Assembly (NCBI GenBank): GCA_018712645.1
Contig: DVGO01000037.1
Location: 1 to 64,000, forward strand
Length of the DNA stretch: 64,000 nt
DNA from: Candidatus Faecousia faecavium
GTDB taxonomy: Bacteria; Bacillota; Clostridia; Oscillospirales; Oscillospiraceae
Direction: 5' to 3'
Shown here piece by piece: positions 6,743 to 48,029 of this stretch. The notes under the pieces are model-generated. The model saw only the letters and a list, made by a program, of their open reading frames with translations. It made no database searches and had not been told where the DNA came from. The position numbers and the translations under genes were made by a program. How positions within the stretch are numbered: the stretch's first letter is position 1; each line of letters opens with the position of its first letter.

Positions 6743-6810
6743 TTGACAAACCGCTTCGGTTGTGGCAATATATTGTGGAGGTTTTTGCAAGCAAACACAA
6801 TATATAGTGT
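6743..6810 (+). promoter_or_regulatory. nrdD promoter with tandem NrdR boxes
   Basis: TTGACA (6743-6748) with a -10 region CAATAT/AATATA around 6766-6772. NrdR box 1 is TGGCAATATATTGTGG (6763-6778), overlapping the -10. Box 2 is ACACAATATATAGTGT (6795-6810), matching the NrdR consensus. The box starts are 32 bp apart, three helical turns, the spacing known for cooperative NrdR binding. Repression of the ribonucleotide reductase operon by NrdR when dATP/ATP is high is therefore expected. Confidence 0.9.
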
Positions 6811-6872: not shown

Positions 6873-9155
6873 ATGATTACCAGCATTATCAAGCGAGATG
6901 GCAGAGTGGTCTTGTTTGACCAGCACAAGATTGCCGCCGCCATTTTGCGCTCCATGGAAGCCGCTCAGGACGGTGATGCATCGGATGCCGCCAGAGTGGC
7001 CAACGATGTTCAGCGGGAACTGGAAGCCCATTTTTCCGCCGAAGCTCCTAACATCGAAGCCATTCAGGATGCCGTGGAACGCCAGCTGATGAACCATGGC
7101 TTCAGCGCCGCTGCCAAGGCCTATATCCTCTACCGGGCCAATCGTACCCGGGCCAGAGAGGCCAACACCAGCCTGATGAAAACCATCGATGAAATCACCA
7201 ACACCGATGCCCGGATCAGCGACATGAAGCGCGACAACGCCAACATCGACGGCAATACCGCCATGGGCGCCATGCTGCAAATCGGCGCTGCCGGTGCCAA
7301 GGCTTATAACGAGATGTATCTGCTCCGCCCGGAACATGCCAAGGCTTACCGGGAAGGCGACATCCACATCCATGACTTTGATTTCTACTCTCTGACCACC
7401 ACCTGCTGTCAGATTGATATTCTGAAATTGTTCCACGGCGGCTTCTCTACAGGCCACGGCTATCTGCGCGAGCCCAAGAGCATTCAAAGCTACGCCGCCC
7501 TGGCCGCCATCGCCATTCAGAGCAACCAGAACGACCAGCACGGCGGTCAGTCCATCCCCAACTTTGACTACGGCATGGCAGAAGGTGTGGCAAAGACCTA
7601 CCGCAAGGCCTTCACCCGGCGGCTGCGGGATGCTCTGGAAGATTATCTGGATCTGACGGATGAAGATGCTGCCGTAACCGCCATCATCACCCAGGCAGAG
7701 GAGATGACTGGCGAAACCGCCCGCCTGGAAAGCAGCGAATCTTACCTCAGCGCGGTCGCCTTGGGACTGTGCCAGAAGTACCACATGGACAAGGAGAAAG
7801 CCTGGAAGCTCATTACCCGGGCCTCTACCCGGGCCTATGCCAAGGCCGACCGGGATACCAAACAAGCCATGGAAGGCTTTGTCCACAACCTGAACACCAT
7901 GCACTCCCGTGCCGGTGCCCAGACTCCCTTCTCTTCCATCAACTATGGCACCGACACCTCCCCGGAAGGCCGGATGGTCATCCGCAACATTTTGCTGGCC
8001 CTGGACGCAGGACTGGGCCACGGAGAAACCTGCATCTTCCCCATCCACATCTTTAAGGTCAAGGAAGGGGTCAACTACAACGAAGGCGACCCCAACTACG
8101 ATCTGTTCCGGTTAAGCTGCAAGGTCAGCGCAAAGCGGCTGTTCCCCAACTACACCTTCCTAGACTCCCCCTTTAATCTGCAATACTACGTTCCCGGGCA
8201 TCCGGAAACCGAGGTTGCCACAATGGGCTGCCGTACTCGGGTTATGGCCAACGTCTACGACCCCACCCGTCAGATCGCCTACTCCCGGGGTAACCTGTCC
8301 TTCACCTCCATCAACCTGCCCCGGCTGGCCATTGAAAGCGGCGGTGATGAGAAGAAGTTCTATGACAGCCTGGAGCATATGCTGGAACTGGTCGCCCAGC
8401 AGCTGCTGGACCGGTTCGAGATTCAGGCCAACAAGCATATCTACAACTACCCCTTCCTGATGGGTCAGGGCGTTTGGCTGGATTCGGACAAGCTGTCCCT
8501 GCAGGACAACCTGCGGGAAGTGCTGAAGCACGGCACGTTGTCCATCGGCTTCATCGGCCTGGCGGAAACGCTGACGGCGCTGTATGGCCATCACCACGGG
8601 GAAAGCGAGGAAATGCAGAAGAAGGGCCTGGAAATCATCGGATTCATGCGTTCCTTCTGCGACCGGATTTCCCAGGAGCATAAGATGAACTTTACCTTGC
8701 TGGCCACCCCCGCAGAGGGCCTGTCCGGACGCTTTATCCGGATGGACCAGAAGCGCTACGGCAAGCTGCCGGGAATTACCGATCGGGAGTACTACACCAA
8801 CTCCTTCCACATCCCGGTGTGGTTCCCCATCTCCGTCTACGACAAGATCCGGCTGGAAGCTCCCTACCACGCCCTGTGCAACGCCGGGCACATCAGCTAT
8901 GTAGAGCTGGACGGCGACACCGCCCGGAACGTGGAGGCCTTTGAATCGGTGGTACGCTGCATGCATGATTTTGGCATCGGCTACGGTAGCATCAACCATC
9001 CCGTGGACCGGGACCCCATCTGCGGCTATGTGGGCATCATCGGAGATGTCTGTCCTCGCTGCGGCCGCCGGGAAGGGGAAGAAGTCCCGCCGGATCGGGT
9101 AGAAGAACTGAAACGCAAATATCCGCAGATGCCTGCTTTCCAGGGCATTGAATAA
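6873..9155 (+). CDS. nrdD: Anaerobic ribonucleoside-triphosphate reductase large chain, lacking the glycyl-radical loop
   Basis: Class III ribonucleotide reductase, reducing NTPs to dNTPs without oxygen. 760 residues from the ATG at 6873 (SD AGAAAGGCAGG upstream). An N-terminal ATP-cone (MITSIIKRDGRVVLFDQHKI, about 1-95) gives allosteric control, then the catalytic barrel (for example QNDQHGGQSIPNFDYGMAEG, NHPVDRDPICGY). A C-terminal cysteine cluster, CGYVGIIGDVCPRCG, is the zinc ribbon; three cysteines are visible. The chain then ends at MPAFQGIE without the RITGY-type glycyl-radical motif that closes normal NrdD proteins. That motif is encoded by the next gene after 27 bases with its own SD, so this is a true two-gene arrangement, not a simple frameshift. 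Confidence 0.95.
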   Translation: MITSIIKRDGRVVLFDQHKIAAAILRSMEAAQDGDASDAARVANDVQRELEAHFSAEAPNIEAIQDAVERQLMNHGFSAAAKAYILYRANRTRAREANTSLMKTIDEITNTDARISDMKRDNANIDGNTAMGAMLQIGAAGAKAYNEMYLLRPEHAKAYREGDIHIHDFDFYSLTTTCCQIDILKLFHGGFSTGHGYLREPKSIQSYAALAAIAIQSNQNDQHGGQSIPNFDYGMAEGVAKTYRKAFTRRLRDALEDYLDLTDEDAAVTAIITQAEEMTGETARLESSESYLSAVALGLCQKYHMDKEKAWKLITRASTRAYAKADRDTKQAMEGFVHNLNTMHSRAGAQTPFSSINYGTDTSPEGRMVIRNILLALDAGLGHGETCIFPIHIFKVKEGVNYNEGDPNYDLFRLSCKVSAKRLFPNYTFLDSPFNLQYYVPGHPETEVATMGCRTRVMANVYDPTRQIAYSRGNLSFTSINLPRLAIESGGDEKKFYDSLEHMLELVAQQLLDRFEIQANKHIYNYPFLMGQGVWLDSDKLSLQDNLREVLKHGTLSIGFIGLAETLTALYGHHHGESEEMQKKGLEIIGFMRSFCDRISQEHKMNFTLLATPAEGLSGRFIRMDQKRYGKLPGITDREYYTNSFHIPVWFPISVYDKIRLEAPYHALCNAGHISYVELDGDTARNVEAFESVVRCMHDFGIGYGSINHPVDRDPICGYVGIIGDVCPRCGRREGEEVPPDRVEELKRKYPQMPAFQGIE

Positions 9156-9182
9156 ACATTTTTCATCTCAGGAGGGATTGTT

Positions 9183-9344
9183 ATGACTGTAAAGAGCAAG
9201 AGCGAAAAGCTAGGCCAGGGTGTTGGCTTCGAGCGTATCCGCCGGATCACCGGCTATCTGGTAGGCACCATGGACAAGTGGAATGACGCCAAGCGGGCCG
9301 AGGAGCGGGACCGAGTCAAGCACAGCATGAACGGCCATGCTTAA
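9183..9344 (+). CDS. Stand-alone glycyl-radical domain of class III ribonucleotide reductase
   Basis: 53 residues, MTVKSKSEKL then GQGVGFERIR, RITGYLVGTMDKWNDAKRAE and ERDRVKHSMNGHA. The RITGYLVG core and the following DKWNDAKRAEERDRVKH match the extreme C-terminus of NrdD, with Gly24 as the expected radical site. An SD (CAGGAGGG) lies six bases before the ATG. Its last eight bases (ATGCTTAA) are also the start of nrdG, so it is translationally coupled to the activase that would make its radical. Inference: the peptide docks on the 760-residue NrdD to complete the enzyme, as the spare glycyl-radical protein GrcA (YfiD) does for pyruvate formate-lyase. Confidence 0.9.
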   Translation: MTVKSKSEKLGQGVGFERIRRITGYLVGTMDKWNDAKRAEERDRVKHSMNGHA

Positions 9345-9849
9345 GTTAAGCGGTATCGTCAGTGACAGCATTGTGGACGGCCCCGGCATCCGGCTGTGTG
9401 TGTTCTGTCAGGGATGCCCACACCACTGTGACGGCTGTCACAACCCGGAAACCTGGCCCTTCCAGGGCGGCACCCCTATGGAGGAAGAGACCATTGTGGA
9501 GATTGCCCGCTCCAACCCCCTGTGCCGGGGCGTAACCTTCTCCGGCGGGGAGCCCTTCGCCCAGGCAGCAGGATTTGCCCGGCTGGCCCGCCTTCTCAAA
9601 GAAGCAGGGTATGAGGTAGCCTCCTACACCGGCTACACCTTCGAGCAGCTGCTGACAGGTACGGCGGAGCAGCGGGTGCTTCTGGAAGCCATCGACATTC
9701 TCATCGACGGTCCCTTCCTGCTGGAGCAGAAAAGTCTGGAAGTTCCCTTCCGGGGGAGCAAAAACCAACGGATTCTGGATGTACCCAAAAGCCTTGCCGC
9801 TGGCAAAGCCGTGGAAACTACCTCCGGCCGCTGGCTGGGAGAATATTGA
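9337..9849 (+). CDS. nrdG: Anaerobic ribonucleotide reductase activating protein (radical SAM)
   Basis: Uses a [4Fe-4S] cluster and SAM to generate the glycyl radical on the NrdD partner. 170 residues, normal for NrdG. The cluster motif is CPHHCDGCHNPETW (CxxxCxxC), preceded by the LSGIVSDSIVDGPGIRL start common to NrdG, and the SAM-binding GG motif is TFSGGEPFAQ. The ATG overlaps the stop of the small glycyl-radical gene by eight bases. Last gene of the NrdR-controlled operon, which ends at the hairpin just behind its stop codon. Confidence 0.95.
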   Translation: MLKLSGIVSDSIVDGPGIRLCVFCQGCPHHCDGCHNPETWPFQGGTPMEEETIVEIARSNPLCRGVTFSGGEPFAQAAGFARLARLLKEAGYEVASYTGYTFEQLLTGTAEQRVLLEAIDILIDGPFLLEQKSLEVPFRGSKNQRILDVPKSLAAGKAVETTSGRWLGEY

Positions 9850-23926: not shown

Positions 23927-23984
23927 CCGTAAGCAAAACACACCTGCCCATCCCTGGACACGAGGACAGACAGACCTTTCACAT

Positions 23985-24165
23985 TCAAGCAGGTCTCCTG
24001 ACTTACGCATCCCCAGCCCGGCACAGCCTTCTCGGGAAAGCTCCCAATGGCCGACTTTCGTCCTATGCAGGGCCTCCGCGCATACAGTGGCGGCACCGTT
24101 CCGGATTCCCACCGGATTCCCTATTCTCCGCCCATTTTCAACGAAATCCGGCGGCACTTGAATGG
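23985..24165 (-). promoter_or_regulatory. Cobalamin riboswitch
   Basis: On the minus strand the conserved cobalamin aptamer elements occur in order: AATAGGGAATCCGGTG, the B12 box core GCCGCCACTGTATGCG, GAGCTTTCCCGAGAAGGC, and the closing GTCAGGAGACCTGC. It sits between the operon promoter and cbiK, with two hairpins behind it, and should switch off the cbi operon when cobalamin is abundant. Confidence 0.96.
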
Positions 24166-24181
24166 GTATTCACTTAGTCAT

Positions 24182-45241: not shown

Positions 45242-47335
45242 TTAGTACGAATACAGGCTGGACAAATCACTCAATTCCGTAGGCGCACCGGGTTGTACAT
45301 TCTTTCCATAGGGGAAGGCAATGTAATCATCCTCGCTCAGGCCGCCCTTGATTTCGGTGTAGCTGCCCCAGAGGGACTTGCCCACGGTAACGGTACGTTT
45401 TTCCAGTTTGCCGCCTGCGCCCTGAACATAGACATAGGACTCTCCATTCTCCGTGCGGACAAAGGGATTCTGCAGGTAGATGCCGTTGGCCCCGGTACTG
45501 GTGGCAAAGGTCATGCTCACATACTTACCCGCCTGCAGGTCGGCGCTGCCGTCCACAAAGGCTACAAAGGGATAGTAGGAAGAATTGGGGTTGCCCATGC
45601 CGCTGTAGCCGTTATCTCTGCTGGGGAAGTCGCCGATGGACTGTACGGTTCCGGTGTAAGTCATACCGGACTCCCAGTCGTTGATGGTAACCTCCTGGCC
45701 AATGCGCAGGTTGTCCTTTTCCAGCTCGTTGATGCTGCCTTCCACATAGAATCCGCCGCCGCCGGAAACCTTCATAAAGGGAGTCTTGGACTCCTTGGCT
45801 TCCTCCTCCGTCAGCAGGGATACCACTTCGCCGTCAATATCGGCGTAGATGTTGCCGTCGCCCACTTCGGTCTGCATAATCTTGTAGTCGGCGTCTGCCA
45901 TCTTGATCTTGAACTCCAGATCCTTGATCTTCTTTTCCTGCTCAGAACGCATCTGGGCAATCTGGGCTGCGGTATAGCCGCTGCCAAAGTCAATATCCGG
46001 GATTTCAATTCCGCCGGGGTCCTCTTCCCCGTCATCAATCAGGGTATAGTCCATCATCCCGGAGGCATCAAACAACCGGACAGAGAAGCTGCCCTCCCAA
46101 CCGTAGACGTGGGCGCCCTGCCAGACCGTCCGCTGGCCCAGAGACATATTTCCCTGAGTGATTTTGAAGATCACATAGTACGAATCCACGCTGATATGGC
46201 CTTCGTCGCCGCCCTCTTCCGGGACGTCAGAGGCCTGGGACATTTCCGCCTGGGTCTGTGTATCCTCCAGGGAAACCTCTTCAGAAATTATCTGGGTTAT
46301 GTCTTCGATGTTTTCCGCAACAGTTTCTCCCACGGTATCCTCGACGGTTTCTCCGACGGTTTCTCCGACGGTTTCTCCGACGGTTTCTCCGACAGTTTCT
46401 CCGACAGTTTCTCCGACGGTTTCTCCGACAGTTTCTCCGACGGTTTCTTCAACGGTTTCTTCGAAGGTTTCCTCGATGGTTTCCTCGATGGTTTCCTCGA
46501 TGGTTTCCTCGATGGTTTCTTCGATGGTTTCTTCGATGGTTTCCTCGATGGTTTCTTCCGTTGTTTCTTCGGTAGTTTCCTCTGTAGTCTCTTCCGTAGT
46601 TTCCGGCTCCGTCGGATCCACCGTCATGTTCTGCAGTTCTTCTGCCCGCTGGCGAATGGCTTCCAATACGCCGCTGTCAATATTGGTAGTATCCTGAAGC
46701 CAGCAGATCAGTGCCAGTTCCTGGCTGCTGCCGTTATATTCTGGATTATCGGAAATCCGGTAAGCCTCCATCAGCATGGTGCCATTGTTGATGTCTTCAT
46801 CAATGGACGGCTCATCAAAAGACGGCGGCTGCATGGGTTTCATGCTGGCAATTCTGTTCAGCTCCGCCTTGGCATCTTCCAGATCCAGCTTGAGCTTTTC
46901 CACTTCCAGCCGCTTACGCTCCAATTCCAGTTCCGAAAGGGTGGTATCAAAGCGCAGCAGCACGTCACCTTTTTTGACCATATCACCCTGAGCAACCAAA
47001 ACCTCCGTCACCGTCTGGGTATCCGAGAGGAACACCGTCTGTATCCGGTCGGTGGTTACAGGGCCATAGCTTTCCTGGGAATCCCCCCAGTATTCGGTCA
47101 TACCAATATCCATAAAAGAGTAGACACCTACAGGCTCGGCTTTGCCGCCTGCGCCCAGCCAGATTCCTGCACCCAGTGCAACTACCAGCACAACCGCGGT
47201 GACACTCAGAATCAGTTTCTTATTCTTCAGATTGGCTCTCTTCAGAGAAATCTTCGGCAGTGTGATCTTCGGCAGATTCTCTTTCTTCACAGAGAGTTTC
47301 TTCAGATTTATGTTCTTCAGATCCAGTTTCTTCAT
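45242..47335 (-). CDS. HlyD/MacA-like adaptor with an internal tandem-repeat region
   Basis: 697 residues from the ATG at 47335 (AGGAG six bases upstream). A Lys-rich N-terminus of repeated LxK units (LKNINLKKLSVKKENLPK) precedes one membrane helix (about 44-64). Then the biotinyl-lipoyl half-motif (TEVLVAQGDMVKKGDVLLRF), a coiled-coil arm, an about 100-residue tract of four-residue units ending in T (EETT, EETI, EETV, GETV; about 241-343), a second coiled-coil arm (QEKKIKDLEFKIKMADADYK), and beta-barrel domains (VGDGNIYADIDGEVVSLL, LRIGQEVTINDWESG). Bridges the exporter to the outside. The repeat lies in the hairpin loop and probably varies between strains. Confidence 0.88.
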   Translation of the reverse strand: MKKLDLKNINLKKLSVKKENLPKITLPKISLKRANLKNKKLILSVTAVVLVVALGAGIWLGAGGKAEPVGVYSFMDIGMTEYWGDSQESYGPVTTDRIQTVFLSDTQTVTEVLVAQGDMVKKGDVLLRFDTTLSELELERKRLEVEKLKLDLEDAKAELNRIASMKPMQPPSFDEPSIDEDINNGTMLMEAYRISDNPEYNGSSQELALICWLQDTTNIDSGVLEAIRQRAEELQNMTVDPTEPETTEETTEETTEETTEETIEETIEETIEETIEETIEETIEETIEETFEETVEETVGETVGETVGETVGETVGETVGETVGETVGETVEDTVGETVAENIEDITQIISEEVSLEDTQTQAEMSQASDVPEEGGDEGHISVDSYYVIFKITQGNMSLGQRTVWQGAHVYGWEGSFSVRLFDASGMMDYTLIDDGEEDPGGIEIPDIDFGSGYTAAQIAQMRSEQEKKIKDLEFKIKMADADYKIMQTEVGDGNIYADIDGEVVSLLTEEEAKESKTPFMKVSGGGGFYVEGSINELEKDNLRIGQEVTINDWESGMTYTGTVQSIGDFPSRDNGYSGMGNPNSSYYPFVAFVDGSADLQAGKYVSMTFATSTGANGIYLQNPFVRTENGESYVYVQGAGGKLEKRTVTVGKSLWGSYTEIKGGLSEDDYIAFPYGKNVQPGAPTELSDLSSLYSY
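46305..46610 (-). repeat. 12-bp coding tandem repeat array
   Basis: About 25 imperfect copies of a 12-base unit (GTCGGAGAAACC on the minus strand) encoding Glu/Gly-Glu-Thr-x. Units drift gradually from EETT through EETI and EETV to GETV, so neighbouring copies are the most alike, which is the mark of stepwise slippage. Unit length is a multiple of three, so copy changes keep the frame. Confidence 0.92.
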
Positions 47336-48029
47336 CTGTGTCTCCTTCCTGCTGTACTTCACCGGTATGCAGCTCGCCGTCCAAAATCCGGTAGGTCTTG
47401 TCAGCGCAGGCTGCAATACTGGGCTCGTGGGTAATCATGATAATGGTCATTCCCTCCTGGCTCAGCTGGCGGAAAATATCCATAATCTGGTTGCCCGCCT
47501 TGGTATCCAAAGCACCGGTAGGTTCGTCTGCCAGCAGAAGATCCGGTTTCCCCACAATGGCCCGGGCAATCGCCACTCTCTGGCACTGACCGCCGGACAT
47601 CTGGTTGGGCAAAAAGTGCATTCGCTCTTCCAGTCCCACGGACTTCAGCGCTTCCGCCGCCCGTTCCCGCCGCTCCTGTACCGGGACACCGGCGTACAGC
47701 AGCGGCAGCGCCACATTGTCCAGAGCGTCCATTTTCGGCAGCAGATGGAAGCTCTGGAACACAAAGCCCAGGTGCTTGTTACGGATCTCTGCCAGATCGT
47801 CGTCGGTCAAATCCTTCAAATTTTTTCCGTCCAGCTCATAGCTGCCGGAGGTGGGAACGTCCAGGCAGCCGATGATATTCATCAGCGTAGTCTTTCCGGA
47901 ACCGGAAGGGCCCATGATTGCCAGGTAATCTCCCTTTTCCACGGTCATATTCACATTTTTCAGAACCCGCACCGGCTCTTTGCCCTGCATGTAGTCCTTA
48001 CAAATATCTGTCAGCTTCAAAATGGGCAT
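47220..48029 (-). CDS. MacB-type ABC transporter ATPase with acidic tail
   Basis: 269 residues from the ATG at 48029 (SD GAGGTGG). Walker A MGPSGSGKTTLMN, Q-loop FVFQSFHLLP, signature NQMSGGQCQRVAIARAI, Walker B LLLADEPTGALD and H-loop MITHEPSIA; the LolD/MacB family. The core is complete by about residue 225. The last about 40 residues are strongly acidic (GSEEHKSEETLCEERESAED) and are encoded in the 116 bases that also encode the basic start of the downstream adaptor in another frame. Its start codon shares a base with the stop of the upstream adaptor (TAATG). Confidence 0.92.
   Translation of the reverse strand: MPILKLTDICKDYMQGKEPVRVLKNVNMTVEKGDYLAIMGPSGSGKTTLMNIIGCLDVPTSGSYELDGKNLKDLTDDDLAEIRNKHLGFVFQSFHLLPKMDALDNVALPLLYAGVPVQERRERAAEALKSVGLEERMHFLPNQMSGGQCQRVAIARAIVGKPDLLLADEPTGALDTKAGNQIMDIFRQLSQEGMTIIMITHEPSIAACADKTYRILDGELHTGEVQQEGDTDEETGSEEHKSEETLCEERESAEDHTAEDFSEESQSEE

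Follow-up and report, generated by a model that had tools for sequence, protein, structure and literature searches.

A class III ribonucleotide reductase operon in Candidatus Faecousia faecavium in which the glycyl-radical loop is encoded by a separate small gene

In this study, we examined an operon for a class III ribonucleotide reductase (RNR) in a 64,000-nucleotide stretch of Candidatus Faecousia faecavium DNA, here called the window, which corresponds to bases 1–64000 of contig 13 in a draft genome of 2.29 Mb, assembled in 82 contigs and 89% complete. On the plus strand, nrdD (6873–9155; ATG at 6873, TAA at 9153–9155) was recognized from its open reading frame (ORF) and from profile matches as the gene for a truncated class III RNR catalytic chain of 760 amino acids, which contains an ATP-cone, a barrel, the radical cysteine C453 in an MGCR motif, a zinc ribbon and a new C-terminal tail, and is without a glycyl-radical loop; its translation ends in ...CGYVGIIGDVCPRCGRREGEEVPPDRVEELKRKYPQMPAFQGIE and has no R-I-T-G-Y motif. 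An AGGAGG ribosome-binding site, read from the sequence at 9170–9175 (plus strand), is followed after 7 bases by the ATG of a second gene on the same strand (9183–9344, ATG at 9183), which encodes a 53-amino-acid glycyl-radical domain (GRD) subunit with the motifs RITGYLVG and DKWNDAK, G24 (RIT-G-YL) being the presumed radical glycine. This small ORF shares the frame of nrdD, with one TAA in between, and overlaps by 8 bases with nrdG (9337–9849, plus strand), the gene for a 170-amino-acid radical-SAM activase that scored 137.4 bits against the TIGR02491 NrdG profile (cut-off 126.1). The original prediction, which was made from the letters and their translations alone, had described a 760-residue NrdD ending after its cysteine cluster without a RITGY-type motif, a separate 53-residue ORF with its own AGGAGG, and an eight-base overlap of this ORF with nrdG; all three points were confirmed, and the observation of a split gene is both correct and understated.

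The two chains match complementary parts of one NrdD. In the NCBIfam profile PRK07111 (NF005497), which has 746 positions, the large chain covers positions 1–711 and the small chain 711–745, and in the Pfam NRDD profile (562 positions) they cover 1–531 and 533–562, respectively. In the comparison with the NrdD of Prevotella copri (8p23), the best-matching stretch of the large chain extends as far as chain residue 705, and the small chain takes up residues 707–738, which places G24 at chain position 715. We take this position to be the radical Gly711 of PMC11226230, with a four-residue offset deduced from the lengths of 743 and 739. The cut thus falls between the zinc ribbon and the glycyl loop. 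The large chain has the NrdD barrel fold and the ATP-cone of a class III RNR, and both the radical cysteine motif MGCRTR (C453) and the zinc-ribbon residues H709, C717, C727 and C730 are invariant in an alignment of 26 rows; the glycyl-radical loop, which in this class belongs at the C-terminus of the same chain, is found on the separate 53-amino-acid chain. The window NrdD had no match to PF02867 up to an E value of 1 and is not assigned to the class II catalytic chains. For the window small protein, as for five proteins of a longer form described below, PF13597 was the only family above its cut-off, and none of these six proteins matched PF01228, the glycyl-radical domain of the pyruvate formate-lyase (PFL) type.

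A scan of genomes with the small protein as query, together with a listing of its neighbours, had been suggested alongside the original prediction, and this check supports the split: among the best 80 of at least 553 loci, 62 are split, 7 are fused and 11 have no recognized NrdD directly upstream, two of the latter (L022 and L075) starting at contig ends. A few of the 62 split loci show a partial NrdD, owing to a contig start or to an interrupted gene (L031). The records that hold split genes bear titles which include Oscillospiraceae, Lachnospiraceae, Peptococcaceae and Bacilli. A 35-amino-acid core of the domain was matched in 122 of 391 genomes of the window's class, mostly in long fused frames, and short frames with this core are frequent in the window's own order; in other genera of the window's family, the matches listed are mostly fused. 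On a quick tree of 97 NrdDs (64 split, 28 fused and 5 tandem; rows with fewer than 400 residues or short of the zinc region were omitted), the split label requires seven changes, five of them forced by starred branches. In this tree long branches meet (a Bacilli-titled split group with L116–L119), the sampling favours split genes, the small protein having been the query, and gains are indistinguishable from re-fusions. Strong purifying selection acts on the small gene, with dN/dS values of 0 to 0.071 in seven comparisons with relatives, and nrdD gave values of 0.035–0.109 in five comparisons; the pair with L018, for which the ungapped comparison was out of register, was excluded, and values with a dS above 1 or infinite are saturated and indicative only.

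Four ARRANGEMENTS (a–d) of the radical domain and NrdD were distinguished, the first of which (a) is the split within an operon as seen in the window. In (b), found in five genomes (G314, G350, G335, G094 and G229), a second domain gene, standing alone, comes after a full NrdD and always precedes nrdG, and in (c) a full NrdD, as read from its C-terminus, is accompanied by a stand-alone domain elsewhere in the genome (G142, G370, G352 and G290). In (d), a truncated NrdD and a non-adjacent domain occur in eight genomes, namely G456, G250 and six genomes that from their source names belong to the Selenomonadaceae (G608, G531, G718, G584, G418 and G654). G584 is a single contig in which the GRD, at 1,038,106, and nrdD, at 1,467,010, are 429 kb apart; in the other seven genomes the two genes are on different contigs, and the ~1.45 kb or more that was read 3' of nrdD is without the domain. 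In all five Selenomonadaceae GRD loci that were read (G608, G531, G418, G584 and G718; G654 was not read) the GRD is directly 5' of nrdG, and nrdG was not seen at any of the six Selenomonadaceae nrdD loci, while in G456 and G250 it remains beside nrdD. Where dS was finite, dN/dS was 0.04–0.26 for the six truncated Selenomonadaceae nrdDs and 0.05–0.23 for four of the domains, many pairs being saturated. In glycyl radical enzymes, oxygen cuts the chain at the radical glycine. The NrdDs of arrangement (d) stop at the loop or shortly before it (G456 ...FERIHRITE, G250 ...FERIPRL and G718 ...GRFTVKRMK, each followed by the stop), those of G456 and G250 with a relic of the loop that breaks off close to the glycine, and judged from these termini they resemble an oxygen-cleaved product that has become fixed in the genome. 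A simple path would lead from the origin of a spare domain (b, c), which makes the built-in loop dispensable, to the loss of that loop (a, d).

To see what else such genomes hold, 42 genomes with split or dispersed genes were hand-picked from the domain-scan matches, the split state being judged by open frames unless a C-terminus was read. In 27 of them no PF02867 match was obtained at an E value of 1e-5, a search that was positive in 11 of 14 control genomes. A further NrdD-type match was present in 11 of the 27, and by profile the other 16 have only the truncated NrdD (G228, G246, G298, G945, G776, G813, G1110, G718, G584, G418, G654, G631, G739, G629, G605 and G581). These 16 genomes are listed as 97–100% complete, and one truncated NrdD C-terminus was read in each; G739 has two NrdDs, one with its C-terminus read and the other reaching profile position 532 of 562, where it ends. 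When the class II sequence of the window genome was used as query, only NrdD ATP-cones were matched in the 16, and a full match was obtained in G000, the window genome itself, and in G819. Every cell needs an RNR, and since no other was found in these 16 genomes, the two-chain enzyme should work there; an RNR may still lie in the missing few percent or be of a type outside these profiles.

We consider it highly probable that this operon specifies a class III RNR of two chains, the glycyl radical being carried by the separate 53-amino-acid chain, which acts together with the 760-amino-acid chain. The original prediction had proposed that the radical is made on a peptide that docks on the large chain, as GrcA does for PFL, and this is the reading best supported by the split at 62 of the best 80 loci, the purifying selection, the variable frame of the small gene, the genomes with no other RNR found and the non-adjacent genes; docking itself, radical transfer and replacement after oxygen damage are what we infer from it. 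The genomic evidence strongly suggests that the small protein supplies the radical loop in trans, and it is probably exchangeable and would work like GrcA/YfiD for PFL. According to this model, the large chain would bind the nucleotides and hold the thiyl-radical cysteine C453 and the zinc ribbon, and NrdG would generate the glycyl radical at G24 in the small chain. The RITGYLVG loop of this chain would then enter the NrdD barrel next to C453, in the manner of the C-terminal loop in NrdDs of known structure, and the radical would be passed to C453 to start the reduction of nucleoside triphosphates. After destruction of the radical domain by oxygen, a fresh small protein could take its place, so that the 760-amino-acid chain would not have to be remade. 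A mobile domain would be natural for this enzyme, because the whole radical domain of the P. copri NrdD becomes disordered with dATP (PMC11226230). The gain may be that a domain damaged by oxygen is replaced at low cost, as with YfiD (PMC8683613), or that the radical step is controlled independently.

It could be argued that the split is only apparent, in that stop-codon read-through or frameshifting fuses both genes into an ordinary NrdD chain. This would suit the window, in which a single TAA separates two ORFs of the same frame, and likewise 17 of the 62 split loci. However, the small gene is out of frame with nrdD at 36 of the 62 loci (26, 22 and 14 loci in the three relative frames), in-frame loci have up to 10 stops in between, and the stop-to-start gap ranges from 0 to 483 nt with a median of 36.5. 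A Shine–Dalgarno (SD)-like motif is present 5' of the small gene at 62 of 62 loci, a count that is biased upward by the choice of the start with the best SD, and in eight genomes the two genes are not adjacent at all. Since the frame of the small gene relative to nrdD varies, read-through cannot explain the split, and we have rejected fusion by read-through or frameshifting as very improbable on the basis of the frame and gap statistics and the non-adjacent genes. An assembly or sequencing error that broke one nrdD gene might be suspected in a draft of 82 contigs; however, L006, a contig from another metagenome-assembled genome record, has the identical break and a small protein that is identical at 53 of 53 residues, the genus-mate G869 is also split, and together with the 62 split loci this leaves next to no chance of such an error. 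The split is not an artefact.

A different explanation would be that the truncated NrdD is a remnant which is dead or serves regulation, that other RNRs are used and that the small protein is a spare part for full-length NrdD. The window genome itself could be read in this way, as it also has a complete Escherichia coli-type NrdD of 734 amino acids with the loop RRTCGYIG (L003 463–2667, which is G000:C14:48194–50266) and a class II NrdJ (L005, G000:C32), and so could the relatives with a stand-alone GRD beside a full NrdD in arrangements (b) and (c). We regard this explanation as unlikely, as both chains are under purifying selection, the 16 genomes discussed above have no other RNR that was found, the other NrdD of the window genome has a different loop, RRTCGYIGTQFW, and a perfect NrdR-type box lies 5' of the operon. 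A second complete nrdD in the genome combined with an inactive unit was one of the outcomes that the original prediction had named as speaking against it; the complete nrdD is indeed present, but no sign of inactivity was seen. Several points weigh against the two-chain enzyme, or against it as a general rule. With two other RNRs in its genome, the unit need not be essential here; class I or II RNRs are held by 15 of the 42 genomes, the window genome included, and by four of the eight dispersed genomes (G608, G531, G456 and G250), G531 having a complete NrdD as well. Within the window's genus, two of the five listed genomes match the GRD core, both with split genes, and three have no match to it. 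Lastly, modelling of the complex was another check suggested with the original prediction: a single-chain AlphaFold2 surrogate, made from the window read with the TAA as Q plus 25 relatives, folded with a mean pLDDT of 79.7 and a pTM of 0.78, but the loop was placed without confidence, the block pLDDT of the loop-bearing residues 791–823 being as low as 32–44. Because of this low pLDDT the position of the loop in the complex is not established and the model was not used as evidence for docking; VIA-align ranges that reach model residues 805–821 fall in the low-confidence part and were set aside.

The box upstream of the operon was scored against the consensus letters of NrdR boxes. The perfect NrdR-type box ACACAATATATAGTGT (6795–6810, no strand assigned) has 0 mismatches and is the sole site with two or fewer mismatches in the 64 kb, in which 0.19 matches are expected at three or fewer. 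A weaker box with 4 mismatches, TGGCAATATATTGTGG (6763–6778, no strand assigned), lies 16 bp 5' of it, and the common spacer between NrdR boxes is 15–16 bp (PMC12051234). At 28 related loci, comparison with 200 mononucleotide shuffles each gave a mixed result: the box beats all 200 shuffles at seven loci (L240, L243, L235, L238, L137, L128 and L129), its score is reached by 1 of 200 at four (L242, L139, L126 and L073) and by 4 to 191 of 200 at the remaining ones, and no stand-out box was seen at L286, L287, L127, L034, L060 and L070.

Among the known class III NrdD/NrdG systems (PRK07111-like), the structures compared were those of P. copri NrdD (8p23 series) and phage T4 NrdD (1h78). The present system differs from them in the placement of the loop on another polypeptide, in a new C-terminal tail of the large chain, with a helix predicted at 740–749 in the AlphaFold2 surrogate, and in a new N-terminal G-x-[GDN]-x-x motif of the small chain. 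It resembles GrcA/YfiD of E. coli and Y06I of phage T4, the autonomous glycyl radical cofactors of PFL, in that the loop of a glycyl radical enzyme resides on a small protein, which would act in trans, and, as with Y06I, phages also carry NrdD-type stand-alone domain genes. Unlike GrcA, the small protein belongs to NrdD (PF13597) and is without a PF01228 match, and whereas GrcA repairs a full-length enzyme, the large chain in the window has no loop, for which reason the small chain should be obligatory here. PMC8683613 gives YfiD and Y06I as the only validated spare parts and regards ones for other glycyl radical enzymes as possible. In Pseudomonas, the class II RNR NrdJa/NrdJb is likewise divided between two genes of one operon, both of which are required (PMC4520616); however, this is another class with another break, and NrdJb mediates disulfide exchange. 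Fragmented nrdD genes are also found in phages, where introns, inteins and homing endonucleases break the gene in phiAS4, phage 949 and Jug phages, but these are interruptions within the coding sequence, some of them restored by RNA splicing (PMC3653736, PMC12363816), whereas here the break is at one domain boundary and the small gene has its own start and SD. Neither a split class III RNR in cells nor an NrdD spare part is described in the open-access literature covered, which consisted largely of titles and the beginnings of abstracts, and within that literature the present arrangement is an apparently undescribed form of class III RNR. It would be a natural class III RNR whose loop is a protein of its own, no other RNR having been found in some of the genomes, and it makes testable the action of NrdG on an isolated loop, the turnover of the radical domain and the supply by phages of a domain of their own. 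A protein search with the small protein scored at least 7996 of 8000 candidates as related; because these genes are so abundant, a common RNR architecture of the gut has been filed as ordinary NrdD or as hypothetical protein.

The small proteins occur in two forms. The short form has a new N-terminal motif, G-x-[GDN]-x-x immediately N-terminal to F-[ED]-R-I-R-R, which is present in 70 of 94 short genome ORFs and 65 of 73 short viral ORFs, and in none of the 22 long ORFs; the 24 genome ORFs that lack it comprise 22 long-form proteins and two NrdD fragments, and the 8 viral ones 6 long-form proteins and two cut ends. The long form, of ~95 amino acids, also occurs unlinked to nrdD, and for its N-terminal domain a weak model (mean pLDDT 64.4, pTM 0.39) predicts beta-alpha-beta-beta. 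With one long-form query, 7382 of 7399 candidates were related, a set that overlaps with that of the short form through the shared loop. In the source records, some small proteins are named anaerobic ribonucleoside-triphosphate reductase and others hypothetical.

Viral loci were represented by 80 kept out of 244 found, and in 68 of these the stand-alone domain has no nrdD or nrdG match in the locus. An NrdD match was absent from all 68 of these viral records (0 of 50 plus 0 of 18), and 5 of 5 positive controls were matched; the records are unrated for completeness, some are short fragments (L195 starts at the domain), and as several loci are near-copies, 68 is not a count of independent phages. 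The domain contains a stop in 2 of the 68 (L152 and L182). Phage genes are located nearby in five loci, encoding terminase (L184 and L212), DNA polymerase (L203) and endolysins (L145 and L169). As a wider and more tentative proposal, which we put forward as possible, class III RNR may have an exchangeable radical subunit that moves between genomes, such that a stand-alone domain, at times forming an activation unit with nrdG, serves NrdDs whose own loop has been lost and phages bring copies to keep or take over the deoxynucleotide synthesis of the host; the truncated NrdD would then correspond, in a form encoded by the genome, to the enzyme after cleavage by oxygen, and the domain would be a consumable for the cell.

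A number of minor observations were made in addition. In Eggerthella phage EL753P1 (L220, 1694–5122), a small gene and, after it, a two-piece radical-domain match come next to nrdD on its 3' side, an apparent split with a frame change in an annotated phage. In Jug phages, nrdD is broken between fragments of 230 and 91 amino acids without mRNA splicing, as stated in a figure legend of PMC12363816, and this might be a radical-domain split of the window's kind. Extra stand-alone copies, one or two besides the operon domain and perhaps in mobile elements, are seen in G282:C12 (L134, L135) and at G1086:C2:2367636. In L031 (near 4.3–4.5 kb) and L131 (G296:C3, near 2.1–2.3 kb), NrdD is interrupted just 5' of the zinc-ribbon region and the rest of it is not adjacent upstream, which resembles an intron or other insertion. 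A TAA inside the GRD match of one genus was rejected as a candidate, being only the normal stop 3' of the domain, and at G738:C208:26562–26657 and G697:C117:16359–16454, in two genera of one family, a single in-frame TGA within the NrdD glycyl-loop match could be a normal stop at the match end or selenocysteine. No nrdG was seen among the ORFs of the 4-kb locus of L003, a genome-wide nrdG search not having been made; the window activase may serve two NrdDs. Elsewhere in the window, ORF translations between 10.7 and 24.2 kb on the minus strand look like cobalamin-synthesis genes, with a cobalamin riboswitch at 23971–24176, and a 724-amino-acid ORF at 45242–47416 (minus strand) resembles a membrane-fusion protein and carries a long tract of E-E-T-I / V-G-E-T repeats in the middle.

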